NCBI RefSeq assembly: GCF_000964425.1
Contig: NZ_BANF01000041.1
Coordinates: 1-44,224 of the forward strand
DNA length: 44,224 nucleotides
From: Komagataeibacter intermedius TF2
Lineage (GTDB): Bacteria > Pseudomonadota > Alphaproteobacteria > Acetobacterales > Acetobacteraceae
Direction of reading: 5' to 3'
This document shows, one piece after another, positions 20,558-43,570 of this stretch; positions within the stretch are counted from its first letter, which is position 1; every line of letters starts with the position of its first letter. The notes beneath the pieces were generated by a model. It was given only the letters and a program-made list of their open reading frames with translations. It did not search any database and was not told the DNA's origin. The position numbers and the translations under genes are program-made.

Positions 20558-20703
20558 ACCATCATTGATAACAACACGAACAGTTTCCGGGTGTTGCCTT
20601 TCCTGAAAAAAGCGTCCCCGGAAACGTCCTTATGATTACTGGATGTTTTTCAGACAGGCTTTTCAAACCGCATCCAGACGCCAGCGCGGGACACATACGC
20701 AAA

Positions 20704-20729
20704 ACGGCAGGGCCGAACCGCCCTGCCGT
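20704..20729 (-). terminator. Terminator of the TonB-dependent receptor gene
   Basis: A perfect 10-bp stem, ACGGCAGGGC / GCCCTGCCGT, with a six-base loop. On the minus strand the stem runs into TTTTGCG, and it lies about 55 bases after the receptor stop. On the plus strand it is followed only by CGCTTTG, so the minus direction is the better reading. Confidence 0.75.
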
Positions 20730-20784
20730 CGCTTTGTGGAAACCGGGCCGCAGGTGCCGCGCCAGACATCATCCCCTGGTATGA

Positions 20785-22974: not shown

Positions 22975-23020
22975 CACACGGTAATTCCTAGTAAAGCAGC
23001 GGTGTTGTGGAGAAAAGATG

Positions 23021-24148: not shown

Positions 24149-24472
24149 TTCTATACAACCACTGTTTGTCGTTGGTTGTTATTTTCATCATTATACACAG
24201 TGAAATCACGTCAGTAATCATCATGAATGATGTGATATTTGTTAATGATGGCAATCGGTCACGGTGTCGGAATGGCACAATATGGACGGATGCGATCCGC
24301 GCGTGCCCACCACAACGCGGATTATGGGCAGGCAGCGCCTGCAGGTGCCCGCATGCACCCGTCTGACACACGCACGTCATGCAGAACATGTTTCGACCGG
24401 CCGGTTATGAAAGCAGTCCGTCACAACCGGGTTCCCGTCTCCGGCATACCCGGAGACAACCGGAACGGTCGG
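24149..24472. promoter_or_regulatory. Spacer between ssuB and SsuD-like copy 2
   Basis: A 324-bp spacer without a gene. Near the SsuD-like start it is AT-rich and contains, on the minus strand, ACGTGATTTCA (about 24,201-24,211), matching the word in two other control regions. Close to ssuB lies a perfect hairpin, GTCTCCGG / CCGGAGAC at 24437-24444 and 24450-24457. It sits 15-35 bases after the ssuB stop and may act as its terminator, although it has no T-run. Confidence 0.5.
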
Positions 24473-26073: not shown

Positions 26074-26210
26074 GAGATCAGGCTCCGTTGTCAGACTCGT
26101 GCTATCTGGTTGTCCCTTATTTTCCAAACAAAGTCAGGTAAATTAATTTCATATCATTATTTAACGTGATTTGATTGTCTTCCATCCGCAGGCATGCTCT
26201 GTCTTGCGGC
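26074..26210. promoter_or_regulatory. Divergent ssuC / ssuA control region
   Basis: An AT-rich spacer of 137 bp. It includes TTAACGTGATTTGATTG at 26161-26177, which matches TTACGTGATTGGATG in the first SsuD/LysR spacer. A LysR-type site that controls both directions is plausible. Confidence 0.5.
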
Positions 26211-27829: not shown

Positions 27830-29176
27830 TCAGCCGACCAGACTGAAGGATGAGGGACGCATCTCTTTTCTTTCTAACGCCCTTAGCTTCATCTCAGCCA
27901 TATCCCTGTAATGAATGCGCTGGAGCTCCGGAACAAGAGAACCCCCTGTTGCCCAGATAACATGTGTCGCGTGATCTGGAACGATCTGATGTGTCTTCAG
28001 ATATTCCCGCCCTGCTTCGGTTTCATTAAGCCACATTGGTCCGCGCAGTCCGGCCGCTGCAGATGGCTCCAGTAAAAATCCCAGATATTTTTCTACAAGG
28101 GCCATATTTTCATATAATTCGTCATCGGAAACCGTAAATACACCTGCCAGCATGTCCTGAATGTGACGCGCGACAAGCAACGACGCCTGTCCGACAGCAA
28201 GTCCATCGGCTTCCGTTTTGTTATCCAGTCCGATTTCCGAAACGGAAACTGGCCCCGTTTGTCCAGAACATAACTGGAGCAGCATACAAGGTGACGCAAC
28301 CGGTTCGGCAAAAAAGCAGTGCACGTCTGGGCCAAAAATCGCTTTCAGCCCGACCGTAATCCCCCCAGGTGCACCGCCTACCCCGCATGGTAGATAAACC
28401 AGCAACGGCGTCTGGCTATTCACCTTGCGACCGGCCGCATGCAATTGCATTTTCAGTTCCAGCGCTGCGGTTGCATAGCCGTAAAACAAAAGGGCGGATG
28501 CTTCATCGTCGACAAAGTAGTCGGACTCCTTCATGAGCGAACGCGCTGTCGCAACTGCGGTGGAATAGTCCCCCTGATGTTCAACGACAGCCACGCCCCG
28601 CGCCAGAAGACGATCTTTTTTCCATTGCCTGGCATCGGCAGACATATGGACTTCCGATCTGAACCCAAGGGCAGCCGACAGGGTACCGATTGCAAGGCCC
28701 AGATTTCCAGTGCTGCCTACAAGGATCTTATGTGCGGAAAAAAGTTCTCTGGCCGCCTCTCCTGCCAGAGAACGCCTGTCAGAGGCGGGATTGATGATGC
28801 CATGATCAAGCGCGAGTTTTTCGGCATAGGCGAGAACCTCATGAAATCCACCCCGCGCCTTGATCGAACCTGCGACCGGAAGCAGGTCGTCACGTTTGAT
28901 GAACCACGCGCCTGGTGCGGTTACAGGCGAACATGCAGCCAGTTTCCCTACCTCGGTCAGGGGAGATTCAATGCGACCATCTGTCGGACCCAACTCGTTG
29001 AAGAGCGCTGCCAGAAGCGGTTCACACCGCCTGAAGCGCGCGCCAGCATCAGCAATTCCAGCTAATATGGACTGGTCAGGGTGGCAGTCGGGAAGCAGGC
29101 ACTCGTTCAGCCAGAGACAACGCTTTTTCGTGCGCAAGCAATCTATAATATGGCTATAATCTTTGCTATTCGTCAT
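27830..29176 (-). CDS. dsdA: D-serine dehydratase (D-serine ammonia-lyase)
   Basis: 448 residues, normal for the PLP-dependent DsdA family. The Schiff-base lysine is Lys106 in PVAGSIKARGG; GSTGNLGLAIG is the phosphate-binding loop; VYLPCGVGGAPGG and CFFAEPVASPCMLL are further family blocks. It converts D-serine to pyruvate and ammonia. The ATG at 29176 has AGG about 9 bases upstream. Codon use and base composition are less GC-rich than the sulfur and pentose-phosphate genes. Together with the transposase remnant downstream, this hints at acquisition by transfer. Confidence 0.93.
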   Translation of the reverse strand: MTNSKDYSHIIDCLRTKKRCLWLNECLLPDCHPDQSILAGIADAGARFRRCEPLLAALFNELGPTDGRIESPLTEVGKLAACSPVTAPGAWFIKRDDLLPVAGSIKARGGFHEVLAYAEKLALDHGIINPASDRRSLAGEAARELFSAHKILVGSTGNLGLAIGTLSAALGFRSEVHMSADARQWKKDRLLARGVAVVEHQGDYSTAVATARSLMKESDYFVDDEASALLFYGYATAALELKMQLHAAGRKVNSQTPLLVYLPCGVGGAPGGITVGLKAIFGPDVHCFFAEPVASPCMLLQLCSGQTGPVSVSEIGLDNKTEADGLAVGQASLLVARHIQDMLAGVFTVSDDELYENMALVEKYLGFLLEPSAAAGLRGPMWLNETEAGREYLKTHQIVPDHATHVIWATGGSLVPELQRIHYRDMAEMKLRALERKEMRPSSFSLVG

Positions 29177-29260
29177 TTCACGCGGCCTGAATGATGCGGT
29201 TCTGGCGGCGATGTGTAGCGCGTCGTGGCATTACGTGGAAACGATATATTCTAATTGATG

Positions 29261-29277
29261 CATTAGTGGAGCTAATG
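29261..29277. repeat. Inverted repeat over the LysR ribosome site
   Basis: CATTAG-TGGAG-CTAATG is a perfect 6-5-6 inverted repeat. The GGAG in its centre is the ribosome site for the LysR gene, whose ATG is at 29281. It could be a protein-binding site or an RNA hairpin that affects translation. Confidence 0.6.
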
Positions 29278-29280
29278 GAT

Positions 29281-30240
29281 ATGCCTCTGCCCTCAACATC
29301 AGTTCTGGGAGCGCTTCGCAGCTTTCATGTCGTCGCAACGAAGCTATCCTTTACGAAGGCAGCCGCCGATCTGTGCGTAACCCAGGGAGCGGTCAGTCAA
29401 CAGATCAGGTTGCTTGAACAGCATCTTGGACTCAGATTGTTCATACGCTCCGCGCGCACCCTGACATTAACAGGAAAAGGGGAGGCATTGCACAAAGTCA
29501 TGACACGTGTGTTCTCGGATACCGAGGCTATTCTTGAAGAACTACAGACACCCGATGCGCCTCTGCAGATAAGTTGCTCGCCTTCGTTTGCCCTGCATTG
29601 GCTGACGCCCCGTCTTGCAGATTTTAACGCACAGCATCCCCATGTCCCGGTTCGACTTGTTGCGGAGTTTCAGGATCTGGATTGCGAGGAACTTGCACGC
29701 GGCCGTATTGATATCGCCATTCGTTATGATCCCAAAAAATACAATGATGTGGCGGCGGAAGACCTGCTTGATGAGTTTATTATTCCTGTATCGACACCAT
29801 CATTTGCAGAAAAAGCACAGCCACTGGAAATAAGAAATGTCCACCTTCTGCACGATAACGAACCGTGGACGGGCGCCCCTGAATATTGTGAATGGAATGA
29901 CTGGATAGAAGAAAATACGGACGATTACAAATGCACGATTGGCGGATCACAGTTTAACCTGTCCAGTCTCGCGCTGGGATCTGCCCTGAAAAATCAGGGT
30001 ATGGCAATGGGTAGAATGGCCCTGGTGTATGACGACATTCTTTCTGGAAGACTTGTTTTCCCATTTGGCAAGGCGATACCTGCAAGCGCGCGTTATGTCC
30101 TGATCTGCCGTGATGCGGCAGACAGAAGAGTAAGTGTTTTCACGCATTGGTTAAAAACTGAATGTGCCCATTTCCGGCGACAGCGAGACAACATGTTAAA
30201 ATCCATGCCAACAGAAAGCCGTTCATTGAAAAACAGATGA
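29281..30240 (+). CDS. LysR-family regulator next to dsdA (DsdC/GcvA-type)
   Basis: 319 residues with a GcvA-type N-terminus: LGALRSFHVVATKLSFTKAA, then DLCVTQGAVSQQIRLLEQHLG. The effector domain has ISCSPSFALHWLTPRLADF, also typical of the GcvA/DsdC group. ATG 29281 is chosen because GGAG is 9 bases before it; a frame open to 29191 adds 30 residues with no family likeness. Divergence from dsdA, as for E. coli dsdC, suggests D-serine-responsive activation. Composition is lower in G+C than the rest of the window. Confidence 0.88.
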   Translation: MPLPSTSVLGALRSFHVVATKLSFTKAAADLCVTQGAVSQQIRLLEQHLGLRLFIRSARTLTLTGKGEALHKVMTRVFSDTEAILEELQTPDAPLQISCSPSFALHWLTPRLADFNAQHPHVPVRLVAEFQDLDCEELARGRIDIAIRYDPKKYNDVAAEDLLDEFIIPVSTPSFAEKAQPLEIRNVHLLHDNEPWTGAPEYCEWNDWIEENTDDYKCTIGGSQFNLSSLALGSALKNQGMAMGRMALVYDDILSGRLVFPFGKAIPASARYVLICRDAADRRVSVFTHWLKTECAHFRRQRDNMLKSMPTESRSLKNR

Positions 30241-32152: not shown

Positions 32153-33553
32153 CTATGCCGCAGCCCCATTCTGTCCAGCCCTGAGCAGGCCTTCAATCTG
32201 CGCGGCGATCTGGAACAGTGCATCATCGTGCATCCGTTTTCCCACAATCATCAATCCTACAGGGGCTTCCCCTTCGTCATGGCAGGGCAGACTGATGGCA
32301 CATCGATCCAGAAAATTTACAATCGTCGCGTTCCGCAAAAGAAGCAGATTAGTATTCGCATACACGTCATCATCATCAAGATCGTCCATACGGGGTGCCA
32401 CAATCGGAACAGTAGGCAGGATAATGGCGTCATACTCATTCAGCATGACGTCAGCACGATCAATCATCTGCTGGCGTTGCTGTATCAGTTCAATGTAATC
32501 AACTGCACTCTGCTCAAGCCCGCGCAAAATACGGCGAAGTACGAACAGGTCATACTGCTCTTTTTTCGCGGCAATCAGATGCTGGTGCCAGGCAAGGGAT
32601 TCTGGCGCGGGGAAACCACCCTTTGCATTGATCCCGGGCAGGCGGTCCAGATCCGGGAAAAAGCAGTCCACCAGTTGTACGCCAGCCTTTCCCAGTCGAC
32701 GCAAGGTTTTCTCCCAAATGGAAATGACCGTACTATCTGCCCCCCGCATAACATATTCTTCCTGCATGATACCCAGTGTGAGTTGCCGGTCCTGCCTACC
32801 ATCTGGAAGTTGCGACATCGAAATATCATGACCTGCCATGACCCGATCAGCGGCCCAGCATCCCGCCACACTGCCCGCTATGGATCCTATCGAATCCAGT
32901 GTTGTCGATAATGGTATGATATGCGTGGTCGGAATACGACGCGCTGTAGGTTTATAACCAACCATTCCGGTCAGGGCTGCGGGAATACGGCATGATCCTC
33001 CCGTATCACTTCCTATGCCAATGCAGGCCATACCATCACTGACGGAAATGGCAGCACCCGAAGATGAACCGCCGGGCACATGCCTGCGCTCACGTTGCCA
33101 CGGATTGGCTGGCGTATCGAAATGGGGATTTATGCCGACGCCGGAAAACGCGAATTCTGTCATGGTGGTGCGACCGATACTGATCATGCCAGACTGTTTG
33201 AGTCGCAATATGGCAGGCGCATCAGACCGAGCCGCAGGCGCATCGGCCAATACGGTAGATCCGGCCTGCGTGACCGAACCGGCTTCATCAAACAGGTCCT
33301 TTACAGAAAAAGGAATCCCGGCAAAAAGCGGCAGCGTCCGTCCGGCCTGCCGCAGCCGGTCTGTTTCATCGGCGGCCCGCCTTGCCGCGCCAGCATGGCA
33401 TTGCATGAAGGTACGGGCTCCCTCGCCCGCCGGATCCGCAATGCGTTCCAGGCATCTTTCAACCAGTTCCCGGCTTGATATCTCACCCGTTTCAAGCTGC
33501 CGTCCGGCATGAAGAAAATCAATAACAGTATTCATGTAATCCAACCCCGTCAT
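32153..33553 (-). CDS. Amidase signature-family amidase
   Basis: 466 residues. The Ser-cisSer-Lys centre is visible: Lys85 in GIPFSVKDLFD, the serine cluster PGGSSSGAAIS (163-165), and the nucleophile Ser187 in GSDTGGSCRIPAA. The family hydrolyses amides; substrates range from indole acetamide to peptide amides. It is the last gene of the porin-Liv transporter operon (25 bases after the binding-protein gene), so it should act on the imported compound, perhaps as the first step. The start may be ATG 33553 or ATG 33535. A GatA role is unlikely, as GatB and GatC are absent. Confidence 0.88.
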   Translation of the reverse strand: MTGLDYMNTVIDFLHAGRQLETGEISSRELVERCLERIADPAGEGARTFMQCHAGAARRAADETDRLRQAGRTLPLFAGIPFSVKDLFDEAGSVTQAGSTVLADAPAARSDAPAILRLKQSGMISIGRTTMTEFAFSGVGINPHFDTPANPWQRERRHVPGGSSSGAAISVSDGMACIGIGSDTGGSCRIPAALTGMVGYKPTARRIPTTHIIPLSTTLDSIGSIAGSVAGCWAADRVMAGHDISMSQLPDGRQDRQLTLGIMQEEYVMRGADSTVISIWEKTLRRLGKAGVQLVDCFFPDLDRLPGINAKGGFPAPESLAWHQHLIAAKKEQYDLFVLRRILRGLEQSAVDYIELIQQRQQMIDRADVMLNEYDAIILPTVPIVAPRMDDLDDDDVYANTNLLLLRNATIVNFLDRCAISLPCHDEGEAPVGLMIVGKRMHDDALFQIAAQIEGLLRAGQNGAAA

Positions 33554-33578
33554 CCATCAATAATGAATATACTGAATG

Positions 33579-34745
33579 TTACGGCGTGCCTGCGGGCAGA
33601 AGTTTCCATGCCCCATCATAAATTTCGAGCACATAAACGGGTTTTATGGCATCGTGCTCGGCATTGATCGTGATATTTCCCTCAAGAGCCGGAAAATCAG
33701 AGATCTTGGCCAATGCATCACGCATAGCGGTTCTTTCTTCCGCCAGGTGTGCTTTATCGCCCGTCAACCGGCCCTGCTTCATGGCCTGTGCATACAGGTA
33801 GACAATATCATACGCGACGGCATCCATCTGGTTGGGAACCGTGCGGGTCATACCGACCGCATGGGCCCTGCTGGAAAATTCCTGGGCAAAAGACCGGGTC
33901 CGTTCGTCATGCTGGGCATAAAAAGTCGTGCCAATTGTCAGGTTTTCCCCATTCCCCTGCAGGCGCGCGGGCAGTTCCGGGTCTGCAACGGTAGTGCCGC
34001 CAACAATACGTGCATCTACGCCCTGCCGCTTCATTTCACGTGCAAGGTTGATGGCGACTTCGGGCGGCGTACCCAGCGCCAGCAGATCGGGATGCATCTC
34101 CTTTAATTGCGAAACCTGCGATGAAAGGTCAAAGGCCGCGAGCTGGAAATCAATCGAGCCTTTCATCTCCACACCGTATTTATGAAACACCTGCGGCAGA
34201 ACGGTCGTACCCATTGTCTTGGAAACAACATCATCCGTTGCATAAGCCACGGCGCCTGTTGCCATAGGCAGATGGGCAGTCCTGAGTGCCGCCATGACCT
34301 GATCGACCACGATACCTTCATCTGTCGTGTTGCGGAATGCAAAGCTGTAGCTTTTTGCCAGTCCGGGAGCCGAGGACGCAATCGCCATTTCTGCTATGCC
34401 CAGCCGCTCACCTGTCGGGAAGGCGGTCCTGACCTCGCTGGAGGAAAAAGGGCCGATCACGGCAAGCGCCTGGTTATCCTGTGCCAGTTGCCGCACGCCC
34501 AATGCAGCCTGCCGGGCATCGCCCGCCGTATCAAAGGTAATAACCCGCAGATTATGGCCATTTACGCCGCCACTGGCGTTTATTTGTTCCACCGCCATGT
34601 CAACTGCAATCCCATTCGTGCGGGACAGGCTGGCAAATGGCCCGCTATGAGCTGTCAAAAAGCCTAGGGTCAGGTCATCTGCCCCATGGGCAGCCAGAGG
34701 CATGCAGCCAAACATGACGGCACAGGTCAGTGTTAATGCTTTCAT
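33579..34745 (-). CDS. Branched-chain-amino-acid-type ABC transporter substrate-binding protein
   Basis: 388 residues, periplasmic. ATG 34745 is preceded by AAGGA 8 bases away and starts a signal peptide (KALTLTCAVMFGCMPLAAHG). The mature protein is a Leu/Ile/Val-binding-protein (type I periplasmic) fold: TLGFLTAHSGPFASLSRTNG, AVEQINASGGVNGH, IGPFSSSEVRTAFP, and AYDIVYLYAQAMKQ. Members of this family bind amino acids but also aromatic acids and amides. It is placed last of the transporter genes and before the amidase. The upstream open frame to 34976 is not used. Confidence 0.9.
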   Translation of the reverse strand: MKALTLTCAVMFGCMPLAAHGADDLTLGFLTAHSGPFASLSRTNGIAVDMAVEQINASGGVNGHNLRVITFDTAGDARQAALGVRQLAQDNQALAVIGPFSSSEVRTAFPTGERLGIAEMAIASSAPGLAKSYSFAFRNTTDEGIVVDQVMAALRTAHLPMATGAVAYATDDVVSKTMGTTVLPQVFHKYGVEMKGSIDFQLAAFDLSSQVSQLKEMHPDLLALGTPPEVAINLAREMKRQGVDARIVGGTTVADPELPARLQGNGENLTIGTTFYAQHDERTRSFAQEFSSRAHAVGMTRTVPNQMDAVAYDIVYLYAQAMKQGRLTGDKAHLAEERTAMRDALAKISDFPALEGNITINAEHDAIKPVYVLEIYDGAWKLLPAGTP

Positions 34746-34791
34746 TCTGTTTTCCTTCCAGGTCAGATTGACAGGCATTTCTTGCGCAGGT

Positions 34792-35511
34792 CTATGTCTG
34801 ACCATGCCCCAGATAGGCGGCCTGAAGATAAGGATGGTTCGTAAGTGTGGCTGCATCGCCTGACATGACGACACGGCCAAGTTCCAATACGGTGGCGCAC
34901 GTGGCAACACGTAGCGCCTGCGCGGTATTCTGTTCCACCAGAAGGATGGTCGTCCCGTTACGATTGATCTCCACAATCAGATCAAACAGGCGTTGCACGA
35001 ATAATGGTGAAAGACCAAGTGATGGCTCATCAAGCATCAGCAGGCGCGGCCGGGCCAGCATGGCCCGGCCAATCGCCAGCATCTGCTGCTCACCACCGGA
35101 CAACCCTGCCGCAAGACCATGCCTGCGGGCAGCAAGATTTGGAAAGCGATCATACAGGTTATCGATTTCCATACGAACGACCTGCCTGTCACTGCGGCGA
35201 TGCGCGCCGAGCAGGAGGTTTTCCTCTATGGTCATGGAGATGGCGATCCGGCGCCCTTCCGGCACGAGCACTATGCCACATGCGACCCGCTGCATGATGG
35301 AAAGTGTAGTTATCGCCTGCTGCGCAAAAGTAATTTCGCCTGCGTCCGGCCGGACAGCACCCAGTACCGTACGCAGCAACGTACTCTTGCCCGCACCATT
35401 AGCGCCCAGAACAGTGGCGATTTCCCCTTCCCTGACCTGCAGGCCAACATCATGCAATGCTTCGATACGCCCGTAACGTACACACAGACCGGAAACATCA
35501 AGCAGGGTCAT
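34792..35511 (-). CDS. livF: LivF-type ABC transporter ATP-binding protein
   Basis: 239 residues. Walker A is GANGAGKST, the LivF-type motif VLVPEGRRIAISMTIEENL is present, the signature is LSGGEQQMLAIGRAL-like, and Walker B is LLMLDEPSLGLSP. It powers uptake together with LivG through the LivH/LivM channel. The start overlaps the livG stop by 4 bases. Confidence 0.92.
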   Translation of the reverse strand: MTLLDVSGLCVRYGRIEALHDVGLQVREGEIATVLGANGAGKSTLLRTVLGAVRPDAGEITFAQQAITTLSIMQRVACGIVLVPEGRRIAISMTIEENLLLGAHRRSDRQVVRMEIDNLYDRFPNLAARRHGLAAGLSGGEQQMLAIGRAMLARPRLLMLDEPSLGLSPLFVQRLFDLIVEINRNGTTILLVEQNTAQALRVATCATVLELGRVVMSGDAATLTNHPYLQAAYLGHGQT

Positions 35512-36281
35512 GCCATCACCTCCTGCTGCGCCGTGGTGCCGATATAGGCCTGCTGGACAAGGGGATTGCGTTGCACCTGCGCCAATGTGCCCTCGGCAAT
35601 TTTCGCGCCAAAGTTCAGGACCACCACATGATCACAGGCACGTTCGATAAAACCCATGTCATGCTCGATAACCACCAGGGTCATGCCATCGATGCGCATG
35701 CGGTCCAGATGCTGACGCAGCGCATTCGTCTCGCTGGGGTTCAGTCCGGCCGCAGGTTCATCAAGTAAAAGCAGGCGCGCGCCCGTCAGTGTCGCACGCA
35801 CAAGGTCTACGCGCTTGCGGATGCCATACGGCAGCGCACCCACCGGTTTGTTTTCCATTCCGGTCAGGTCATAGGTTTCCAGCGCCTCACGTGCAGCCTC
35901 ACGCCACCGGTTATGGGGCATGAGCCGGAAAGGCGCCAGCAATGTGCCCACACCGGATGCCTGTAGATGCTGCCCCAGCAACAGGTTATCCATAACACTG
36001 AGATATGGCATAAGCCTTACATTCTGGAAGCTACGCGCGACGCCTGCGCGAATACGGCGGCCAGACGAAATATTGGTTACATCTGTTCCATCAATGTAAA
36101 TTCTGCCCTGATCCAATGGATAAATACCACTGATCAGATTGAATACCGTTGTCTTGCCCGCCCCATTGGGGCCAATCAGGGCAATCGCCTGTCCTTGGTG
36201 CACAGTCAGGTCAAGGTTGTCGACAACCCTGTTCTGGTGGAATGATTTGGTAATGTTATCAAGAACAAGCGCCATCGTCAT
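35508..36281 (-). CDS. livG: LivG-type ABC transporter ATP-binding protein
   Basis: 257 residues. Walker A is GPNGAGKTT, followed by the LivG block GVARSFQNVRLMPYLSVMDN. Walker B is LLLLDEPAAGLNP. The signature segment is degenerate: where LSYGxQRRLEIARAL is expected, the sequence has LPYGIRKRVDLVRATL, which is seen in a subset of LivG proteins. The start is ATG 36281 or 36275, overlapping the end of livM. Confidence 0.92.
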   Translation of the reverse strand: MTMALVLDNITKSFHQNRVVDNLDLTVHQGQAIALIGPNGAGKTTVFNLISGIYPLDQGRIYIDGTDVTNISSGRRIRAGVARSFQNVRLMPYLSVMDNLLLGQHLQASGVGTLLAPFRLMPHNRWREAAREALETYDLTGMENKPVGALPYGIRKRVDLVRATLTGARLLLLDEPAAGLNPSETNALRQHLDRMRIDGMTLVVIEHDMGFIERACDHVVVLNFGAKIAEGTLAQVQRNPLVQQAYIGTTAQQEVMA

Positions 36282-37114
36282 GATTGTGCCCCCCTGCGGG
36301 TAAGCCGTGACAGAAGATGCGCCGTCAGTACCCCATCAGGGCGCAGACGCATGCATGCAATTAGCACGGCGGCAAAGATCGCATACCGCCACTGCTCCGA
36401 AGCCCTGAAGATTTCAGGCAGGAATGTAAATGCTGCAGCACCGATAACAGGGGCGAATGGCGTTTCGATCCCGCCCAGTAGTACCATCAAAACGTAGTAT
36501 ATGCTTAGCATGATACTGAAATGCTGCGCCTCGACAAAACTGTAGGAAGCCGCATACAGTCCGCCCCCGAGACCTGCAATTGCGGCCCCCATGATAAAGG
36601 CCACAATGCTCAACCCACGGGTTGGCACGCCCATAAGGCTGGTGACCAGTGGATCCGTACGGATGGCTGTCAGGTATAATGTAAAACGCGTGCAGCCCAG
36701 ATACACGATCACGGCCAGTACAGCCGCACTGGCCGCATAGACAACGGCGGGTGATATATAGGCAGGCAGGGGGTAACCGGATGCCCCACCCACGCTATCC
36801 ATATCAAGAAAGACGGCCGGGATGATTTCACCCAGCGCAAAGGTACTTAGGGCAAAATAGATACCACGAACCCTTAGCGTCAGAAACGACGCCAATGCAC
36901 CCAGCGCGGTTGCAGCCAGGCCACCTGCAAGTATATCGGCAGCAACAGGCAGGTTCCATGTATTGCACATATAGGCCGTAGCATAAGCCCCGACCCCCAT
37001 GAAGGCCGCTGTTGCCAGCGTTAGTTGGCCTGCAAGTAATGATAGATATGCCGCACTGGCCCCGATCAGGTTAAAGCAGAATATTATGAGAAGGCCCGAA
37101 AAGTATCCACTCAT
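36278..37114 (-). CDS. livM: LivM-type ABC transporter permease
   Basis: 278 residues with about 8-9 membrane segments. LIGASAAYLSLLAGQLTLATAAFMGVGAYA-type sequence and LRVRGIYFALSTFALGEI are LivM landmarks, as is the loop GGLYAASYSFVE. ATG 37114 overlaps the livH stop (TGATG). A longer frame to 37210 lies within livH and is rejected. Confidence 0.9.
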   Translation of the reverse strand: MSGYFSGLLIIFCFNLIGASAAYLSLLAGQLTLATAAFMGVGAYATAYMCNTWNLPVAADILAGGLAATALGALASFLTLRVRGIYFALSTFALGEIIPAVFLDMDSVGGASGYPLPAYISPAVVYAASAAVLAVIVYLGCTRFTLYLTAIRTDPLVTSLMGVPTRGLSIVAFIMGAAIAGLGGGLYAASYSFVEAQHFSIMLSIYYVLMVLLGGIETPFAPVIGAAAFTFLPEIFRASEQWRYAIFAAVLIACMRLRPDGVLTAHLLSRLTRRGAQS

Positions 37115-37989
37115 CACAATTTTTCCTGTTGTGGGGCACAACCAAGAAGTCCCGCTGGTCGCATGACAAGAAGAAGAAGGAGAATGCCGTAAACAACAAT
37201 ATTGACACATTCCGCCCCAGCACAGGAAATGGTAGCAACCTCGACCATTCCCAGCAGCATACCCCCGAGAACGGCTCCCCAGATACTACCTACGCCACCA
37301 ATAATCATGGCAGCCAGCCCCTTGAAGCCGACTTCCTCGCCCATGAAGGGCGAAACCTGCTGGTAATTACAGGCAAACAGGATGCCAGCCACAGCGGATA
37401 GCAGAGCACTGATAATGAACAGCATCCTGACCAGACGCACGATATTGAAACCAAGCAGCAGGGCTGTCTCGGTATTTTCCGCCATGCAGCGTATCTGTCG
37501 CCCCATACCGGTCGCACGCAGGAACCATGAAAGCCAGATGACAACCCCGATGGACAGCAGCAGGCTGCCCACCTGTATTCCGCTTATGACCAGACCGGAC
37601 ACATGAATGTTCAGGCCGGTCACGACAGGTGGGAGCGCCTGCTGGTCGGAACCGCAGATGGCAACAAGAAGATTTTCAATCAGGACCAGAAAGGCAAGCG
37701 AACTAACCAGCGGCAGCGTCGGGTCACGCAGGCGAGAAGGCCAGTAAACCAGCCATTCCGTTACAAGCGCAACCGCGACAACAGCTGCCGGTGCCAGGAC
37801 CATTGCCCATACAGGCCCCCACCCCGCATGCAGGCATATCCATGTCAGCATGCCCCCCAGAGCGAACAGTCCCGGCAGGGAGAAGTTCAGAAAATTGAGT
37901 ACGCCAATCATTATTGTAAAAGACAGCGCAACAAGCATGTAGACCGCACCCAACAGAGCACCATTCACGATCTGCTGCATCAACATCAT
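37114..37989 (-). CDS. livH: LivH-type ABC transporter permease
   Basis: 291 residues, membrane protein with NGALLGAVYMLVALSFTIMI and NFLNFSLPGLFALGG near the start and GFKGLAAMIIGGVGSIWGAVLGG near the end, all LivH landmarks. GGGAA lies before the first ATG; ATGs at codons 2 and 4 are possible. It is the first transport gene after the porin, 61 bases away. Confidence 0.92.
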   Translation of the reverse strand: MMLMQQIVNGALLGAVYMLVALSFTIMIGVLNFLNFSLPGLFALGGMLTWICLHAGWGPVWAMVLAPAAVVAVALVTEWLVYWPSRLRDPTLPLVSSLAFLVLIENLLVAICGSDQQALPPVVTGLNIHVSGLVISGIQVGSLLLSIGVVIWLSWFLRATGMGRQIRCMAENTETALLLGFNIVRLVRMLFIISALLSAVAGILFACNYQQVSPFMGEEVGFKGLAAMIIGGVGSIWGAVLGGMLLGMVEVATISCAGAECVNIVVYGILLLLLVMRPAGLLGCAPQQEKL

Positions 37990-38050
37990 TCATGTTTCCC
38001 ATGCAGTATTCCATTATGGCAGCATTCATCCCGCGCCGGCACACTCTCCA

Positions 38051-39517
38051 TCACAGCGGCTTGATTTCGGGCAGATCAAATGCTTCGTTAAAGCGGATCA
38101 TGATCTGCGCGCCCCCACCTACAGAATAGTGGATCTTTGGATCGGGCACATAGGCATAGAGTTCCTGGTCAGGATGGAAAACCGCATCGATATAGGGGCG
38201 GAACAGAACCCCAGGCAGGACTTCGGCACCATAAGTAAACTCGACCCCTTCCGTGCTGCGTGCAAAATTGCCCCTGCCACCATTGACCTGCACCGCCGTA
38301 TCGAGTGCGGCCGTCACGCGCTGATTGAAGACCGAAGCAACACCAATCAACCCCATGTAATCATGCGGGCGGCGCGGCAGGCCATGTTTGAGAACACCAA
38401 GCGTATAGTAAGCATTGACAGTGGGGTGACCGGATGAACCAATATATGCCCCGCCAAATATCTGCAGGTCCTCATGGGATTTACGGTTGGGTTTCCATAC
38501 CGTCTGCATGAATTCACCATAAACTTCCGTATGCGCACCATCATTCATGGGCGTGCCGCCATTGGTCAGGAGCGGCTTGCCCGCTGTATTGAGGTAGGCA
38601 TCGCTAAAATTATGGGAGTCATAATAAAAGCCGACTACATATTTTTTAGGATAGGCTTCCGTTTCATACGTCGAGGAATAGCCACCTTCGACCGGGATGA
38701 ACGTGCCATTGGCATGGGCTTCCGACCAGTTCCCCGAAAAGGGGAATCCTGTCCGTGTAAATCCCCACGAATTATCCGCATAGGCGCCCGTCTGGATATA
38801 ATAGTTCGTCGCCGGGCGGATGGTCAGCATGCCACCCCACGTTGCAACCGGCCAGTGTGACTGGTTTGCATTGAAGCTCCAGCCTCCAGGATTGCCGCAT
38901 ACGAAAGAGACAAACTGACAGTCGGTCGGCAGGTTGGTCAGGTATTTGGTCGGTGCGATACGGCCCAGACGGATGTTGATGATCCGATTGAAAAGATTCT
39001 GTTCATATGAAAATTCCGACAGTCGCGTATTGTTGCTTGGTCCCGTCACGCCACCCTGATAGTCCATGGCGCTTCCATTAAAGGTATTCAGGCCGCCCGC
39101 GTTGAACGTGCCGAAACGTGAATCCAGCCCGATATGGATCTGCCCGCCATGCAGATGGACCAGTTTTTCGAGGTCCAGATCCATGCCATAGGCAAAGTCA
39201 TGCAGGAAGGCAGTTCCCTTTTTTCGACCACCCGATGCCTGCGAATAGGACGTTCCCGCATAATATCCGTTAAAATATATGCCCCTGTTCGCCAGGTTAT
39301 GCGTAATTCCCTGAAGACCAATATAGCGAGAAAAGGAAACGACCGGGGAGACTTCGGGCTCTTTCTCAGCCGTGTACTGGGGGACCTCCTGTTCGTCCTC
39401 GGTCTGCCCCCATGCCACATGGGACATGCCGCTAACCGACAGAAGGGCAAACGCGGAGCAGACCGCGGTTATGTTTCGTGGTCGTAACGGTGTAGGTAGG
39501 CAAATCTTGGCACCCAT
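38051..39517 (-). CDS. OprB-family outer-membrane porin
   Basis: 488 residues. ATG 39517 has AAGGTG 9 bases upstream and starts a long signal peptide ending near HVAWGQ. The mature protein has the OprB carbohydrate-porin pattern: GITHNLANRGIYFNGYYAG, LVHLHGGQIHIGLDSRFG, INIRLGRIAPTKYL, and the late block YGAEVLPGVLFRPYIDAVFHP. Acetic acid bacteria carry many OprB paralogues. Its position at the head of the Liv-amidase operon suggests it admits the same compound across the outer membrane. The TTG at 39553 is not needed as a start. Confidence 0.9.
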   Translation of the reverse strand: MGAKICLPTPLRPRNITAVCSAFALLSVSGMSHVAWGQTEDEQEVPQYTAEKEPEVSPVVSFSRYIGLQGITHNLANRGIYFNGYYAGTSYSQASGGRKKGTAFLHDFAYGMDLDLEKLVHLHGGQIHIGLDSRFGTFNAGGLNTFNGSAMDYQGGVTGPSNNTRLSEFSYEQNLFNRIINIRLGRIAPTKYLTNLPTDCQFVSFVCGNPGGWSFNANQSHWPVATWGGMLTIRPATNYYIQTGAYADNSWGFTRTGFPFSGNWSEAHANGTFIPVEGGYSSTYETEAYPKKYVVGFYYDSHNFSDAYLNTAGKPLLTNGGTPMNDGAHTEVYGEFMQTVWKPNRKSHEDLQIFGGAYIGSSGHPTVNAYYTLGVLKHGLPRRPHDYMGLIGVASVFNQRVTAALDTAVQVNGGRGNFARSTEGVEFTYGAEVLPGVLFRPYIDAVFHPDQELYAYVPDPKIHYSVGGGAQIMIRFNEAFDLPEIKPL

Positions 39518-39557
39518 GATCTCTAACACCTTTTTATGAAAGCTATGTTGCAATGGG

Positions 39558-39587
39558 ATCGTAATAATTGGTTCTTTTTGATGTCAA
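39558..39587 (-). promoter_or_regulatory. Predicted sigma-70 promoter for oprB-liv-amidase
   Basis: On the minus strand TTGACA (39587-39582), an 18-base spacer, and TACGAT (39563-39558). The palindrome at 39591-39605 lies immediately upstream of the -35 box. Confidence 0.5.
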
Positions 39588-39590
39588 CTT

Positions 39591-39605
39591 GAATCTTGAA
39601 GATTC
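39591..39605. promoter_or_regulatory. Perfect palindrome, candidate operator
   Basis: GAATCTTGAAGATTC, two 6-base arms around TGA. It lies next to the minus-strand -35 box. Its size suits a MarR-type dimer. Confidence 0.5.
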
Positions 39606-39687
39606 TCAAATATTTTTCGTAACATACTGCCAATATACGGTAATTATACAGAATAAATATCATGTTATGAATCCGGCATGAATTTTG

Positions 39688-39716
39688 TTGACACATTCAT
39701 AATGGCTTTCATACAA
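39688..39716 (+). promoter_or_regulatory. Predicted sigma-70 promoter for the monooxygenase operon
   Basis: TTGACA (39688-39693), a 17-base spacer and ATACAA (39711-39716), about 45 bases before the first start codon. A second TGTCAA at 39724-39729 mirrors the -35 box and may be part of an operator. Confidence 0.6.
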
Positions 39717-39760
39717 AGCTATATGTCAAATCACTCCTTCTGCCTGCACAGGAGACGTTC

Positions 39761-40285
39761 TTGAAACTGGATCAGAAAAAACTTCGGAATGTGCTGGGAC
39801 GCTTCGCTACAGGCGTGACGATCATCACAGGGCGGGACATTACCGGCGAACCCTTCGGATTTACGGCCACCTCGTTCAATACTGTATCGCTCGACCCGCC
39901 ACTGATCCTGTTCAGCGTACGCAAGGGGGCGCGCAGTTGCGATATCCTGTCCGGCGCGAATGCCTATACAGTGAATGTTCTGGGGCTGCACCATGCTCCA
40001 TTATCCGACATGTTCGGGCGGAACACGGGACTGAAAGAACGTGCAATAAAACTGACCGAGATGTGTGGCCACAGCATGCGTGGCGTGTCGGACGCCCTGG
40101 CGGTCCTGCACTGCCGCCCCTATGCCGCGCATGGGGCAGGCGACCATGTCGTGTTTATTGGTGAAATACAGGAAATCCTGACATCAGAGGGATGCAGACC
40201 CCTTATTTTCTATAATGGCCAGTACCATACAACTGTGCCGTTCAACGATCTGCTACCTGCACAACAGGAGAAAAAAGTAGTATGA
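39761..40285 (+). CDS. Flavin reductase, HpaC-like component of a two-component monooxygenase
   Basis: 174 residues. RNVLGRFATGVTIITGRD, GFTATSFNTVSLDPPLILFS and YTVNVLGLHHAPLSDMFG are the flavin-reductase-like split-barrel motifs. It should reduce FAD or FMN with NAD(P)H and pass it to the oxygenase encoded next. The start is TTG at 39761, preceded by AGGAG 6 bases away, and no in-frame ATG fits the conserved N-terminus. The stop overlaps the oxygenase ATG (ATGA), so the two are coupled. Confidence 0.9.
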   Translation: MKLDQKKLRNVLGRFATGVTIITGRDITGEPFGFTATSFNTVSLDPPLILFSVRKGARSCDILSGANAYTVNVLGLHHAPLSDMFGRNTGLKERAIKLTEMCGHSMRGVSDALAVLHCRPYAAHGAGDHVVFIGEIQEILTSEGCRPLIFYNGQYHTTVPFNDLLPAQQEKKVV

Positions 40286-41718
40286 AAACTGGGCAGCAAT
40301 ACCGGGATTCCCTGAAGGATGGGCGCACTGTCTATATCGACGGGAAACAGGTTGAAGATGTAACGACCCACCCTGCTTTCTGTAACGCCATAGACACAGT
40401 GGCGCGGATGTACGATTTTTCATCATCTCCACAGAATGAACGCCTCATGACATGCCAGAATACTGATGAAGACAGAATCAACCGTATATGGCAACTGCCT
40501 AAAAGCTATAATGACCTGGTCGAGCGGCGGAAGGCACTTGAGGCATGGGGACAGCTACATGCAGGCTTCTTCGGCCGCTCCCCCGATCATGTCGCATCCT
40601 GTATTGCTGGCATGTATATGGGCCGCGATATATTTAATGCCTACGACCCCAAGCGGGCGCAAGCATTGGGTGATTACTATCATTATGCTTCCAGCAATGA
40701 TATTTTCCTGAGCTATGTCATCATTAACCCGCAGGGGGAACTTCCGGCATCAGGAGAAACGGCCGGCAGGCGACGCCTGGCCGCATCCATCGTGGACCAG
40801 GACAGCAGCGGGATTGTCATCAACGGCGCCAAGATGCTGGCCAGCGGTGGTGTGATGGCACATGAGGTGCTGGTCACCTGCATCCAGCCCCTACCTGTGG
40901 GTGATGAAGCCCTGGCCTTCTCTGCCGTGGTGCCGATGAATGCACCGGGCCTGCGCATCCTGTCGCGTAAATCCTATGAAACAGGGACCGGTTCGGTTTT
41001 CGACTATCCCATGTCCAGCCGGTTTGACGAAAATGATGCCGTGCTGGTTTTCGAAAATGTCAGCATACCGTGGGAGCGGGTTTTCATTATTGATAACCGC
41101 GAGATGTGCCAGAAGCAGTTCATGGCGACACCGGCGCATGTGTACCAGAACTATCAGGCCATGATCCGCCTTAAAACCAAGCTGCTGTTCCTGGTTGGCC
41201 TGGCGCATCGCACTACGGAAATCAACTGCACGGCACGCTTTCCCCAGGTTCGGGAAATACTGGGACAACTTGCAGCCGAAGTGGGTATGCTTGATGCCAT
41301 GGTGGCTGGCATGGAAGCCAAGGGCAGCGAAGTTGGCCCATACTTCATCCCGGATCGCCATTCCCTCTATGCTGCCCAGACGCTTACGCAGCAACTGTAT
41401 CCACGCTTTATCGAACAGCTGCGTAATCTGGCCGGTGGCGGCGTAATCATGCTGCCTTCATCCATAAAGGATTTTGACAATCCTGAAATCATGAAATGGA
41501 TCAACGAAAGCCAGTCCTCCCCCATTGTGGATGCGCATGACCGGGTCAAATTTTTCAAGCTGATGTGGGACGCCATCGGCTCCGAATTCGGATCGCGCCA
41601 TACCCAGTATGAAATGTTTTACGCAGGCGCCAGTTATGTGCCGAAAAACCATTCCTTCCGCACCTTTGACTGGAATGGTTCTGCCACCCGCGTCGATACC
41701 ATGCTGGCTTCTTACTGA
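40282..41718 (+). CDS. HpaB-type (4-hydroxyphenylacetate 3-hydroxylase family) FADH2-dependent monooxygenase
   Basis: 478 residues. The N-terminus (TGQQYRDSLKDGRTVYIDGK and VEDVTTHPAFCNAIDTVARMYD) and the middle (HAGFFGRSPDHVASCIAGM) are characteristic of the HpaB/PvcC/TftD family. The acyl-CoA-dehydrogenase-like C-terminal domain ends in TFDWNGSATRVDTMLASY. Family members hydroxylate phenols or related aromatic rings using FADH2 and O2; a few are dehydratases instead. An adjacent HpaC-like reductase supports the oxygenase reading. No HpaD-I ring-cleavage genes of the 4-hydroxyphenylacetate pathway are present, so the substrate is probably something else. Confidence 0.88.
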   Translation: MKTGQQYRDSLKDGRTVYIDGKQVEDVTTHPAFCNAIDTVARMYDFSSSPQNERLMTCQNTDEDRINRIWQLPKSYNDLVERRKALEAWGQLHAGFFGRSPDHVASCIAGMYMGRDIFNAYDPKRAQALGDYYHYASSNDIFLSYVIINPQGELPASGETAGRRRLAASIVDQDSSGIVINGAKMLASGGVMAHEVLVTCIQPLPVGDEALAFSAVVPMNAPGLRILSRKSYETGTGSVFDYPMSSRFDENDAVLVFENVSIPWERVFIIDNREMCQKQFMATPAHVYQNYQAMIRLKTKLLFLVGLAHRTTEINCTARFPQVREILGQLAAEVGMLDAMVAGMEAKGSEVGPYFIPDRHSLYAAQTLTQQLYPRFIEQLRNLAGGGVIMLPSSIKDFDNPEIMKWINESQSSPIVDAHDRVKFFKLMWDAIGSEFGSRHTQYEMFYAGASYVPKNHSFRTFDWNGSATRVDTMLASY

Positions 41719-41742
41719 ACCTGACAACTGGAGATCAAACAC

Positions 41743-42123
41743 ATGGCTATAAACAAGGCACATGACGAATTCCATACCCTTGACATGAACAATGGATGGG
41801 AACGCCCCGCAGCATACAAGGTGGACGTCAGAGAAAAGGTCCTGTCCGGGGCACTGGATGAAGTCAGTAAAAAAGGCAGCCGCACCCGCCTCCTGCGCTT
41901 TTCACCCGGTGTCTACACAACAAAACCTTTCGTGCATGATTATTGGGAGGAAGTATATCTCATCTCCGGTGACCTGACCGTAGGTAATGATGAAAATGGC
42001 GAAGGCGGCGAAGCCTTCGGTCCCAATACCTATGCCGTGCGGCCACCCGGTGCGGTACATGGCCCTTTCAAATCGAATGGCGGCTGCCTTCTTCTGGAAA
42101 TTCATTACTACGATCCGGCATAG
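41743..42123 (+). CDS. Cupin-domain protein of the monooxygenase operon
   Basis: 126 residues, one cupin barrel. The first cupin motif reads FVHDYWEEVYLISGDL (His65, Glu69, Glu70) and lacks the second His of the usual HxH. The second motif has RPPGAVHGPF (His106), and LLLEIHYY follows (Glu119, His121). A metal site of His and Glu ligands is possible, but standard ring-cleaving cupins have HxH...E...H. It may be a dioxygenase, isomerase or hydrolase acting after the monooxygenase. GGAG lies 9 bases before the ATG; the gap to the previous gene is 24 bases. Confidence 0.85.
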   Translation: MAINKAHDEFHTLDMNNGWERPAAYKVDVREKVLSGALDEVSKKGSRTRLLRFSPGVYTTKPFVHDYWEEVYLISGDLTVGNDENGEGGEAFGPNTYAVRPPGAVHGPFKSNGGCLLLEIHYYDPA

Positions 42124-42134
42124 GAGCTAGGGGC

Positions 42135-42815
42135 ATGCTGCATTTTACACGCATGACGCAAGACGGGCAGGACCATATCACCTGCGCACCCAACCGGCTG
42201 ATCATAGCGGGCTGGGCGGGGCGAGACATGGCTGCGATTGAAGAACATATCGTGGAACTTGAAGCAATCGGGGTTCCTCGCCCATCGTCTGTGCCGGTCT
42301 ATTACCGTGTGGCACGGGACCTGCTCCTGCAGGCGGATCGGGTGCAGATTCTGGGCAGCACGTCATCGGGTGAGGTTGAGCCTGTTCTACTTGCCCTAGC
42401 TGATGGGTGGTGGGTCGGCATTGGCTCGGACCACACGGATCGAGAAGCGGAAACAATCGGAATTGCGCTATCCAAACAGCTCTGCTGCAAGCCGGTATCA
42501 AGGGTTCTGTGGAAATGGGAGGATGTCGCCGACCACTGGGATATGCTCATCATGCGTTCCTGGGCTACGATTGATGGCATGCGGGTCCTTTACCAGGAAG
42601 GTCCGGTCAACAGCCTGCGCGCGCCGGATAATCTGGTGGATAACCTGCCAGATACAATCGCATTTACACCAGGCGACATGATGTTCTGCGGGACCCTGTC
42701 CGTAAAAGGCGGCATTCGCCCTGCCCAGCGTTTCGAAATGGAACTGGAGGATCCTGTCCTCAAGCGGTCCATAAGACATGCCTATGATCTGGATATGTTG
42801 CCCGTCGTTTCATAA
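42135..42815 (+). CDS. DUF2848 protein, fumarylacetoacetate-hydrolase-like
   Basis: 226 residues. The blocks NRLIIAGWAGRDMAAIEEHI, ELEAIGVPRPSSVPVYYRVA, LGSTSSGEVEPVLLALADG and VGIGSDHTDREAE are those of DUF2848. The C-terminal part (FTPGDMMFCGTLSVKGGIRP) resembles fumarylacetoacetate hydrolases, which cleave C-C bonds of acylpyruvates or decarboxylate and hydrate related acids. It lies 11 bases after the cupin gene. The likely role is cleavage of a ring-opened or oxo-acid intermediate; this is inference, as no DUF2848 activity is known to me. Confidence 0.85.
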   Translation: MLHFTRMTQDGQDHITCAPNRLIIAGWAGRDMAAIEEHIVELEAIGVPRPSSVPVYYRVARDLLLQADRVQILGSTSSGEVEPVLLALADGWWVGIGSDHTDREAETIGIALSKQLCCKPVSRVLWKWEDVADHWDMLIMRSWATIDGMRVLYQEGPVNSLRAPDNLVDNLPDTIAFTPGDMMFCGTLSVKGGIRPAQRFEMELEDPVLKRSIRHAYDLDMLPVVS

Positions 42816-42837
42816 GGGGCCATGCAGCATGGCTTAA

Positions 42838-42887
42838 CTGGATTGGGACCATGCATGAATATACCAGAAATACCCAATCCAGATTTT
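42838..42887 (+). terminator. Probable terminator of the monooxygenase operon
   Basis: CTGGATTGGG (42838-42847) pairs with CCCAATCCAG (42873-42882) around a 25-base loop, followed by ATTTTACGCTTCC and six T. The loop is long, so the efficiency is uncertain. It separates the operon from marR. Confidence 0.65.
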
Positions 42888-42973
42888 ACGCTTCCTTTTT
42901 TCCGCCTTTCCGAAAATAGCTCTGGTCCTGCTTTTTCGATCGACAGGAAAATACGGCATGCTATCACGTCAGA

Positions 42974-43570
42974 ATGAAAGCGAAAAAAACTTCCGGACCC
43001 AAAATGCGTGACCACTCTCCGGTCCTGACTGAACCATTTGACGAGGCGCATCCCCTGACGGTATCGCGGCCTGAACTTCTGGTTAATGGATCAGATCGTA
43101 TTTTCCGTGAAATGCTGCACAATATTCTGGCATTTTCGGCCCGGATTCAAGAAAATCGCAGTCGTCTTGGACGGCATATTGGTCTGAGCGGCACGCAATA
43201 CACTATTCTGATTTCCATTGCGCATATGGAAATCGAAGAAGTCGGCATCATACAGATTGCCGAGCACATCCATCTCAGCGGGGCATTCGTCACGATTGAA
43301 GTCAACAAGCTGGTTGAGGCGGGACTGGTAAAAAAAGAAGTCAACCCGCATGATCGCCGACGTATTCTACTTCATACGACAGCCAAAGGCCGTGCAAGTC
43401 TTAAAAAACTGACCGAAATTCAGGTTCCGGTTAATGATACAATCTTTCGTGATATTACCCATGAACAAATGCAGCAACTCAGGAGAATATTGCCACTTCT
43501 GCTGCACGGCTCCAACGCCTCCCTACGACTAATGGATGCTCCTGAGCCCCAAGAATCTGACCGAAAATGA
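42974..43570 (+). CDS. MarR-family regulator of the catabolic island
   Basis: 198 residues. A winged helix-turn-helix occupies about residues 75-145: GLSGTQYTILISIAHME, then IIQIAEHIHLSGAFVTIEVNKLVEAGLVKKEVNPHDRRR-type sequence, with the DRR wing motif. MarR proteins often repress aromatic-catabolism genes and release DNA when they bind the substrate or a CoA derivative. ATG 42974 gives an N-terminal tail of about 40 residues that is unusual; ATG 43004 is a shorter alternative. It has its own upstream region after the terminator. The control target is inferred from position and the palindromes at 39591-39703. Confidence 0.88.
   Translation: MKAKKTSGPKMRDHSPVLTEPFDEAHPLTVSRPELLVNGSDRIFREMLHNILAFSARIQENRSRLGRHIGLSGTQYTILISIAHMEIEEVGIIQIAEHIHLSGAFVTIEVNKLVEAGLVKKEVNPHDRRRILLHTTAKGRASLKKLTEIQVPVNDTIFRDITHEQMQQLRRILPLLLHGSNASLRLMDAPEPQESDRK

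Follow-up and report, generated by a model that had tools for sequence, protein, structure and literature searches.

A recurring gene module in Komagataeibacter intermedius with a candidate MarR operator and a possible role in nitrogen-heteroaromatic acid catabolism

What compound would a bacterium take up and degrade with a porin, a Liv-type ABC transporter, an amidase, a two-component flavin hydroxylase of the HpaBC type, a small cupin and a protein of the family DUF2848? This question is raised by a 44,224-nucleotide stretch of Komagataeibacter intermedius TF2 DNA (contig NZ_BANF01000041.1; hereafter the window). At positions 32153-43570, open reading frame (ORF) calls and Pfam and NCBIfam scans bear out the arrangement that an earlier note, made from the sequence alone, had described: all of these genes, and a MarR-family regulator gene, lie in two divergent, tightly packed operons. 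That note proposed a complete route for one amide-linked aromatic or heterocyclic compound, a completeness that is unproven. Our reading, to which we give about an even chance (roughly 0.5), is that the cluster is a catabolic island under MarR control and serves the breakdown of a small aromatic acid, on which HpaBC, the cupin, the amidase and the DUF2848 protein act in sequence. The substrate is most likely nitrogen-heteroaromatic (of the pyrrole, pyridine or a similar type).

The earlier note had suggested looking for HpaB, cupin, DUF2848 and Liv genes together in other genomes, and this search found that the set recurs. Scanning GTDB contigs with the cupin gave 266 relatives, the best 80 of which were analysed, with neighbouring genes counted up to about 8.5 kb from the cupin, Liv components up to 10.5 kb and amidases from at least 40% identity. 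The loci were chosen by their cupin, so its own frequency among them is meaningless; HpaB is present at 60, DUF2848 at 59, the reductase at 57, MarR at 48 and the amidase at 40, and three or more Liv components are present at 37. The 61 loci with at least 6 kb on both flanks include HpaB 49 times, the reductase 46, DUF2848 50, MarR 41, the amidase 35 and Liv 35. Hosts include Cupriavidus, Pandoraea, Bradyrhizobium, Bosea, Nitratireductor, Asaia, Nguyenibacter and Gluconacetobacter. The Gluconacetobacter sacchari cupin is 81% identical to that of the window, and another genome of the same family (locus L226) encodes the module with the window's transporter type at 52-69% identity. Relatives of the window's binding protein (51-60% identity) adjoin the module at L088, L121, L123, L226 and L229. 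In a sample of 289 genomes from the class, 23 have the cupin (E ≤ 1e-20), 35 have DUF2848 and 16 have both (Fisher p = 8e-12), while HpaB (E ≤ 1e-60) occurs in 28 and together with the cupin in 15 (p = 3e-12); these p values ignore shared ancestry. A catabolic unit that combines uptake, enzymes and a regulator, as the earlier note had it, is thus a recurring one across the 80 loci.

Comparison of these loci revealed two exchanges between enzyme types. HpaB is found at 60 of the 80 and a FAD_binding_3 hydroxylase at 13, with no locus containing both; the amidase is found at 40 and an enamidase homologue at 12, again without overlap. Both sets of counts share ancestry. The nearest solved structure to the FAD hydroxylase of L113, the sole representative compared, is HspB (6-hydroxy-3-succinoylpyridine 3-monooxygenase), and the sole enamidase homologue compared, that of L090, is nearest to the solved enamidase 2vun (E = 1.7e-98). 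We tentatively suggest, with somewhat less than even confidence, that a module built on the cupin and DUF2848 serves hydroxylated N-heteroaromatic acids, with exchangeable hydroxylase and C-N hydrolase cassettes whose reactions converge on one oxo-acid amide. The cupin would then be a new ring-opening or tautomerising enzyme, DUF2848 a new oxo-acid lyase or hydrolase of the fumarylacetoacetate hydrolase (FAH) type, and the HpaBC form of the module would stand under one MarR operator.

Two other genes recur around the cupin. A stand-alone IscS-type cysteine desulfurase is near it at 19 of the 80 loci (for example, L052 6293-7573), 18 of them in Pandoraea or Cupriavidus, where the gene lies between marR and the reductase, and one in Ramlibacter; the single desulfurase scanned exceeds the TIGR02006 cut-off. 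DUF1185 (AA_synth, PF06684), possibly a tautomerase, though this is a guess, accompanies the enamidase homologue at ten of the 80, including L090 and L099.

How might the two operons be tied together? The 230 bases upstream of the reductase gene in 20 chosen loci, the window included, yielded the pattern TAGCTTT-N5-AAAGCTA, a 19-bp palindrome that precedes both window operons and the reductase or MarR genes of many relatives. One window site (39527-39545, no strand assigned; CACCTTTTTATGAAAGCTA, two mismatches to the pattern) lies just ahead of the probable oprB start and is a predicted MarR operator of the oprB-liv-amidase operon. The other (39703-39721, likewise without strand; TGGCTTTCATACAAAGCTA, one mismatch) lies ahead of the reductase gene, where the predicted operator overlaps the expected -10 element of the reductase operon downstream of a -35-like TTGACA (39688-39693, plus strand). 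By eye, a TTGAC box precedes the palindrome or a degenerate form of it in the window and 12 of 19 relatives. The two sites are the window's only matches at up to three mismatches, and both fall in the divergent promoter region; shuffled versions of the window averaged 0.44 matches and reached two in 3 of 100 shuffles. No site at up to two mismatches was found ahead of the window marR itself. Short inverted repeats near the promoter were set aside as operator candidates, as the conserved element came from the upstream comparison and is a different one.

Set against four control patterns in 134 sequences (2.43 Mb), the palindrome has 30 sites at up to one mismatch where the controls have 0, 1, 0 and 0, and 65 at up to two mismatches where they have 4, 4, 7 and 7. 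All but one of the 65 (64/65) lie -40 to 250 nucleotides (nt) from where a queried pathway gene begins, the closest such gene being the reductase (30), MarR (22), UbiD (5), DUF2848 (3) or, for one site each, UbiX, a TonB receptor, oprB and DUF1185; three of the controls had 1/4, 1/4 and 1/7 of their matches near queried genes. The palindrome is near a queried gene in 42 of the 60 sequences with HpaB at 57% or above. A gene-blind scan for exact sites in 398 genomes of the phylum recovered six in five genomes, four of which (in three genomes) adjoin reductase/HpaB, MarR or Liv binding-protein genes and two of which adjoin none. One of these three, G786, is probably the genome that contains L068, a locus outside the 20 from which the pattern was read. 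The palindromic site is thus present at the presumed regulated promoters, as expected of a predicted MarR regulon, and relatives of the MarR gene adjoin operator-bearing promoters. On these sequence comparisons the palindrome is likely a MarR operator that ties both operons together, with MarR inferred as the binder from gene adjacency and presumed to repress both operons. The palindrome before each operon also supports joint regulation of the two, the lack of which the earlier note had named as a refuting outcome. Such an operator would allow the inducer, and hence the substrate, to be sought by reporter screening without guessing the chemistry.

We then asked where the amidase (32153-33553, minus strand, 466 aa; PF01425, E = 1.6e-76), encoded by the final gene of the left operon, would act. 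The earlier note had it act first, and the corresponding explanation is that the amidase releases an aromatic acid from its amide (an aryl or amino-acid conjugate, for instance), after which HpaBC hydroxylates a phenolic ring that the cupin and DUF2848 protein cleave. We consider this unlikely, if still worth entertaining: the amidase gene is grouped with the uptake genes, not HpaBC, in the window and in G. sacchari, and the protein scores 247 bits against an indoleacetamide hydrolase model, below that model's cut-off of 532. An enamidase homologue, however, stands in for the amidase in relatives, the amidase gene comes right behind the cupin gene in 9/11 Cupriavidus and 3/5 Bosea loci, and operons with DUF2848 and the amidase exist that lack a hydroxylase. 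The enamidase exchange and the hydroxylase-free loci thus lead us to place the amidase after ring oxidation rather than before it.

The neighbours of DUF2848 outside the module point the same way. Twenty DUF2848 loci lack a cupin in the fetched stretch (17 from the 289-genome scan and three of six plasmid loci, the other three of which had a cupin), and these contain an amidase (8), a D-glutamate-cyclase family gene (9), a PxpB/C-type carboxyltransferase (1), a HyuAB hydantoinase/oxoprolinase (1) or none of these (7). Judging by their family names, such neighbours catalyse the opening or closure of lactams and related rings, which makes a ring-derived C-N bond the likelier target of the amidase. 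A later, ring-derived amide thus fits better than an initial one, and the earlier interpretation was probably wrong about the amidase's place. The enzyme exceeds the cut-off of NCBIfam PRK07056 (592 versus 447 bits), and its K85, S163 and S187, which we take to be the catalytic triad, are at least 95% conserved in 41 sequences. Its nearest solved structures are allophanate hydrolase 4cp8, GatA and biuret hydrolase 6c62, and thus include hydrolases of small polar amides.

The DUF2848 protein (42135-42815, plus strand, 226 aa; PF11010, E = 3.6e-80) had been called FAH-like, and its predicted fold agrees. The AF2 model, from 32 sequences, has a pLDDT of 94.5 and is predicted to adopt the FAH fold; Foldseek matches it to 4dbf (Cg1458) with E = 4e-10, a TM score of 0.68 and about 15% identity. 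Seventeen PDB entries match at E ≤ 0.001, and their titles name Cg1458, HpcE, HpcG and keto-deoxy-acid dehydratases/hydrolases, which we take to be FAH members. H38xxE41, E80-V-E82, D99 and K114 are invariant in the 32 sequences; residues beyond the first pair presumably have metal-binding or catalytic roles as well. In an alignment made by eye, these motifs correspond to H-x-x-E, E-V-E, G-L-D-M-T and A-K-G of the genome's PF01557 protein, the only one detected. An hhalign comparison with this protein recovered the C-terminal motif only, at an insignificant probability of 2.6, so the motif alignment stands by eye and the fold by prediction. Described FAH proteins (Cg1458, HpcE, FAHD1, 2-keto-3-deoxy-arabinonate dehydratase) thus resemble DUF2848 in predicted fold and, by eye, in their H-x-x-E, E-V-E, G-x-D-x-T and K motifs, whereas DUF2848 forms a separate Pfam family with only that low identity to 4dbf. 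His30 and Glu33 are the catalytic dyad of FAHD1 (PMC8398924, in excerpt).

Together, the shared control site, the cassette exchange and the fold narrow the role of DUF2848 to an FAH-type reaction close to the hydrolysis of a C-N bond and make a direct test possible, for a family found in 35/289 genomes of the class and for which the open-licence literature yielded no paper (weak evidence of absence). The same literature yielded no paper on the gene set, which is in line with the earlier suggestion of an undescribed pathway and is likewise weak evidence of absence. The earlier interpretation is right, then, on DUF2848 and on a recurring, apparently undescribed unit.

DUF2848 also occurs in other company. 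At L196, L191-L193 and L213 it is found with a TRAP transporter, a D-glutamate-cyclase family gene (PF07286) and an amidase or PxpBC, a grouping that is a second DUF2848 operon type. A Pantoea vagans plasmid (L209 7156-11905) encodes a small unit of GntR and DUF2848-amidase-DUF4286-MFS with no annotated oxygenase, and Phyllobacterium L208 has a similar set with LysR neighbours.

The small cupin (41743-42123, plus strand, 126 aa), which is strongly conserved throughout the module, scores slightly below the Pfam cut-off of Cupin_7 (25.7 versus 27 bits) and is predicted to have a cupin fold (AF2 pLDDT 87.9). H65, E69, E70 and H106 are invariant in 33 sequences. Structural comparison puts TM1459, KdgF and acetylacetone dioxygenase among its best matches, a mixture that leaves dioxygenase, tautomerase and hydratase activities all possible. 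At L206 (9607-9996) and L207 (9258-9647), the same cupin (60-63%) adjoins a second small cupin-like gene, among sulfurtransferase- and cysteine-synthase-like genes (mostly judged by eye) and with no HpaB match; this is a second context for the cupin family.

HpaB-family enzymes act mostly on phenols. The window's HpaB-superfamily flavin-dependent hydroxylase (40282-41718, plus strand, 478 aa) has both family domains well over the Pfam cut-offs (PF11794, E = 5.9e-85, 285.6 versus 35 bits; PF03241, E = 2.2e-52, 177.6 versus 25 bits) and scores below the curated equivalog cut-offs (TIGR02309, 300.4 versus 480.2; TIGR02310, 282.1 versus 885.2). Its partner, an HpaC/HsaB-like flavin reductase that starts at a TTG (39761-40285, plus strand; PF01613, E = 6.2e-31), is below the cut-off of all eight NCBIfam equivalogs it matched. 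The pair thus shares with described HpaBC systems (TIGR02309, TIGR02310, TIGR02296) a two-component flavin hydroxylase of the same superfamily and domain architecture, but it falls below every equivalog cut-off and no HpaDEFGHI were seen in the cluster. Moreover, the pocket positions that read R-Y-H in solved HpaB structures (6qyh and others) are R-H-Y here (R99/H103/Y145); H103 and Y145 align with Y117 and H155 of E. coli HpaB, which we take to be its phenol-facing Tyr and His. By curated cut-off or pocket residues, the enzyme does not classify as a 4-hydroxyphenylacetate hydroxylase. R-H-Y is present in 72 of 73 distinct HpaB sequences from cupin loci. It is also present in 11 of 18 from loci whose fetched stretch, in some cases only about 4 kb long, contains no cupin. 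We rejected it as a cupin-linked signature, since those 11 proteins (35-51% identity) share it; it instead marks a wider HpaB subfamily.

In the sequence of events that we favour, a nitrogen-containing ring acid would be taken up by way of the OprB porin and Liv-type ABC transporter, and the reductase and HpaB-type enzyme would hydroxylate its ring. The cupin would then open or isomerise the hydroxylated ring, the amidase would hydrolyse the C-N bond of a ring-derived amide or enamide and free the nitrogen, and the FAH-fold DUF2848 protein would cleave or decarboxylate the resulting 2-oxo acid to central metabolites. MarR would bind TAGCTTT-N5-AAAGCTA ahead of both operons until the substrate or an early pathway intermediate released it.

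Several findings weigh against this reading. Neither an amidase nor an enamidase homologue is near the cupin at 28 of the 80 loci, including all nine from Pandoraea, or at 17 of the 61 full-flank loci, so that not every cluster would include an amide step. Two loci outside the 80 are exceptions to the exchanges: L037 combines an enamidase homologue with a 40% amidase, and L229 carries both hydroxylases. At up to two mismatches the palindrome is absent from 18 of the 60 sequences with HpaB at 57% or above, and it was found at 0/21 FAD-hydroxylase loci and only 4/13 enamidase-homologue loci. The motif-like control TGACTTT..AAAGTCA was near queried genes in six of its seven matches. In the 398 genomes a reversed control had 11 exact sites versus six for the palindrome, so that there the location of sites, not their number, is telling; in the host's own genome, it had seven sites at up to two mismatches versus five, two of which are the promoter pair, and only that pair is credited. 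In the cupin, a Phe occupies the place of the first His in the common metal motif, and the protein's nearest structural matches include non-oxidative enzymes, KdgF for example. Finally, G. sacchari L111 encodes a tannase/feruloyl-esterase-family protein (PF07519, E = 2.4e-75) and a TonB receptor beside the amidase, neighbours that suggest a phenolic-acid ester at least as well.

A more specific proposal, which we rate as quite improbable, is that the substrate is pyrrole-2-carboxylate or a close pyrrole acid: HpaBC would form the 5-hydroxy (5-oxo-pyrroline) acid, a cyclic enamide from which the amidase or enamidase would release 2-oxoglutarate and ammonia. A monooxygenase for pyrrole-2-carboxylate has reportedly been purified from Rhodococcus. 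UbiD genes are present at seven of the 80 loci, five with the palindrome nearby, and the sole UbiD compared, that of L080, is nearest to 6h6v and 7p9q (AnInD). We take 6h6v to be HmfF, and HmfF and AnInD to decarboxylate five-membered heteroaromatic acids. This and the enamidase exchange speak for a pyrrole acid, yet the route leaves DUF2848 or a dioxygenase without an evident role.

Least probable of all, in our view, is a plant phenolic ester, from which a receptor or porin and an esterase would deliver a hydroxycinnamic or hydroxybenzoic acid for conversion by HpaBC to a catechol-type acid and cleavage by the cupin, with the amidase in a side role: the L111 esterase, the usual phenolic substrates of the HpaB family and palindromes upstream of TonB-receptor genes in Nguyenibacter L050 (two mismatches, about 198 nt before the gene) and L111 (a second palindrome, about 430 nt ahead of the ORF within the divergent region) favour it, but the window's cluster genes include no tannase, the pocket residues differ from solved HpaB, the genome yielded no intradiol dioxygenase (one LigB-family gene lies elsewhere in it) and half of the loci (40/80) have the amidase.

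Returning to the proposed nitrogen-heteroaromatic route, the nearest described pathway by logic is the 4-hydroxypyridine (kpi) route of Arthrobacter sp. IN13, for which the excerpted account describes a FAD hydroxylase, enamidase-related ring opening, a step that hydrolyses a formyl/imino amide and, as a proposal, an FAH hydrolase (PMC7356986). The proposed order of a flavin hydroxylase, ring opening, amide hydrolysis and an FAH-family step is the same. The kpi enzymes in that account are the single-component FAD_binding_3 protein KpiA, the alpha/beta hydrolase KpiB and the PF01557 protein KpiD, whereas the window has HpaBC, the amidase, the cupin, DUF2848 and MarR; with other families at each step, it is an analogue of kpi and not a member. 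A kpi-type FAD_binding_3 hydroxylase and a PF01979 ring-opening enzyme are not in the window cluster, and either occurs in some relatives. The described kpi regulator is of the FadR type, and GntR-type neighbours accompany this module's FAD-hydroxylase variants. The same excerpt gives Eubacterium barkeri as the source of enamidase 2vun, close homologues of which are at 12 of the 80 loci, none with an amidase near the cupin, whereas the window has an amidase-signature enzyme instead. Imide opening followed by amide hydrolysis is described for a fungal nicotinate route (PMC9304392, in excerpt).

None of the usual partners that would name a pathway (HpaD-I, Rieske oxygenases, catechol dioxygenases) is among the cluster genes (ORFs and Pfam; the remaining window was judged by eye), in keeping with the earlier note. 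Auxin degradation was considered on account of MarR, the amidase and the plant-associated hosts. The Variovorax indole-3-acetate (iad) operon is comparable in that it is an inducible set of bacterial genes for the catabolism of a ring acid from plants, and the paper on it mentions MarR, but IadD/E there is a Rieske dioxygenase with IadC as reductase (PMC10374108), and we rejected this candidate. No Rieske IadD/E is among the identified cluster genes, the rest of the genome not having been searched for it. An indA-type indole degradation, raised by a Cupriavidus sp. IDO locus, was also rejected, as IndA-type enzymes are described as group E flavoproteins (PMC6165268, in excerpt). Degradation routes for uracil and picolinate and the classical one for nicotinate were further candidates considered.

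The remaining genes of the left operon, all on the minus strand, encode the uptake system. The OprB-family porin gene (38051-39553; PF04966, E = 9.9e-48) probably starts at the ATG at 39517, judging by the sequence. It is followed by livH (37114-37989; PF02653, E = 1.4e-34), livM (36278-37210; NCBIfam LivM-like, below cut-off), livG (35508-36281, named from its position and the matches of the relatives' transporters, not from a family-library scan) and livF (34792-35511; PF00005). A periplasmic binding protein of the Liv type (Peripla_BP_6, about 33579-34751; PF13458, E = 3e-45) comes next, its start set at an internal ATG of an ORF that is open from 34976. The MarR gene (42974-43570, plus strand; PF12802, E = 3.5e-9) ends the cluster on the right. 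Overlaps of four bases join the reductase gene to hpaB, livG to livM and livF to livG, and the gaps are 24 bases for hpaB/cupin, 11 for cupin/DUF2848, 25 for binding protein/amidase, 61 for oprB/livH and 158 for DUF2848/marR. The larger livM/livH overlap depends on the start chosen; the true livM start is probably internal to the called ORF, which would make it small.

The cluster looks like an acquired accessory island. Its G+C content is 53.7% versus 59.7% in bases 1-27000, within a low-G+C stretch that runs from near 26-28 kb to the contig end; a separate dip, to 55%, is at 8-14 kb. The final 115 or so bases of the contig (44109-44224) match an IS5-family element on Komagataeibacter/Acetobacter plasmids (95-97% in the eight matches shown), and a whole-cluster megablast against plasmids gave a single 79-base match and nothing more. 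The cupin is present in 11/150 genomes of a family sample, the host's own included, and in 0/2 other listed members of the genus.

Elsewhere in the window, ORFs read by eye at 14791-27176 include a rhodanese-like gene, two luciferase-like monooxygenases, a TonB receptor and SsuABC/TauABC-like genes, and this region looks like a sulfur-source island. At 27830-30240, again by eye, a gene for a D-serine dehydratase-like PLP enzyme and a LysR gene point away from each other at the left border of the low-G+C stretch.

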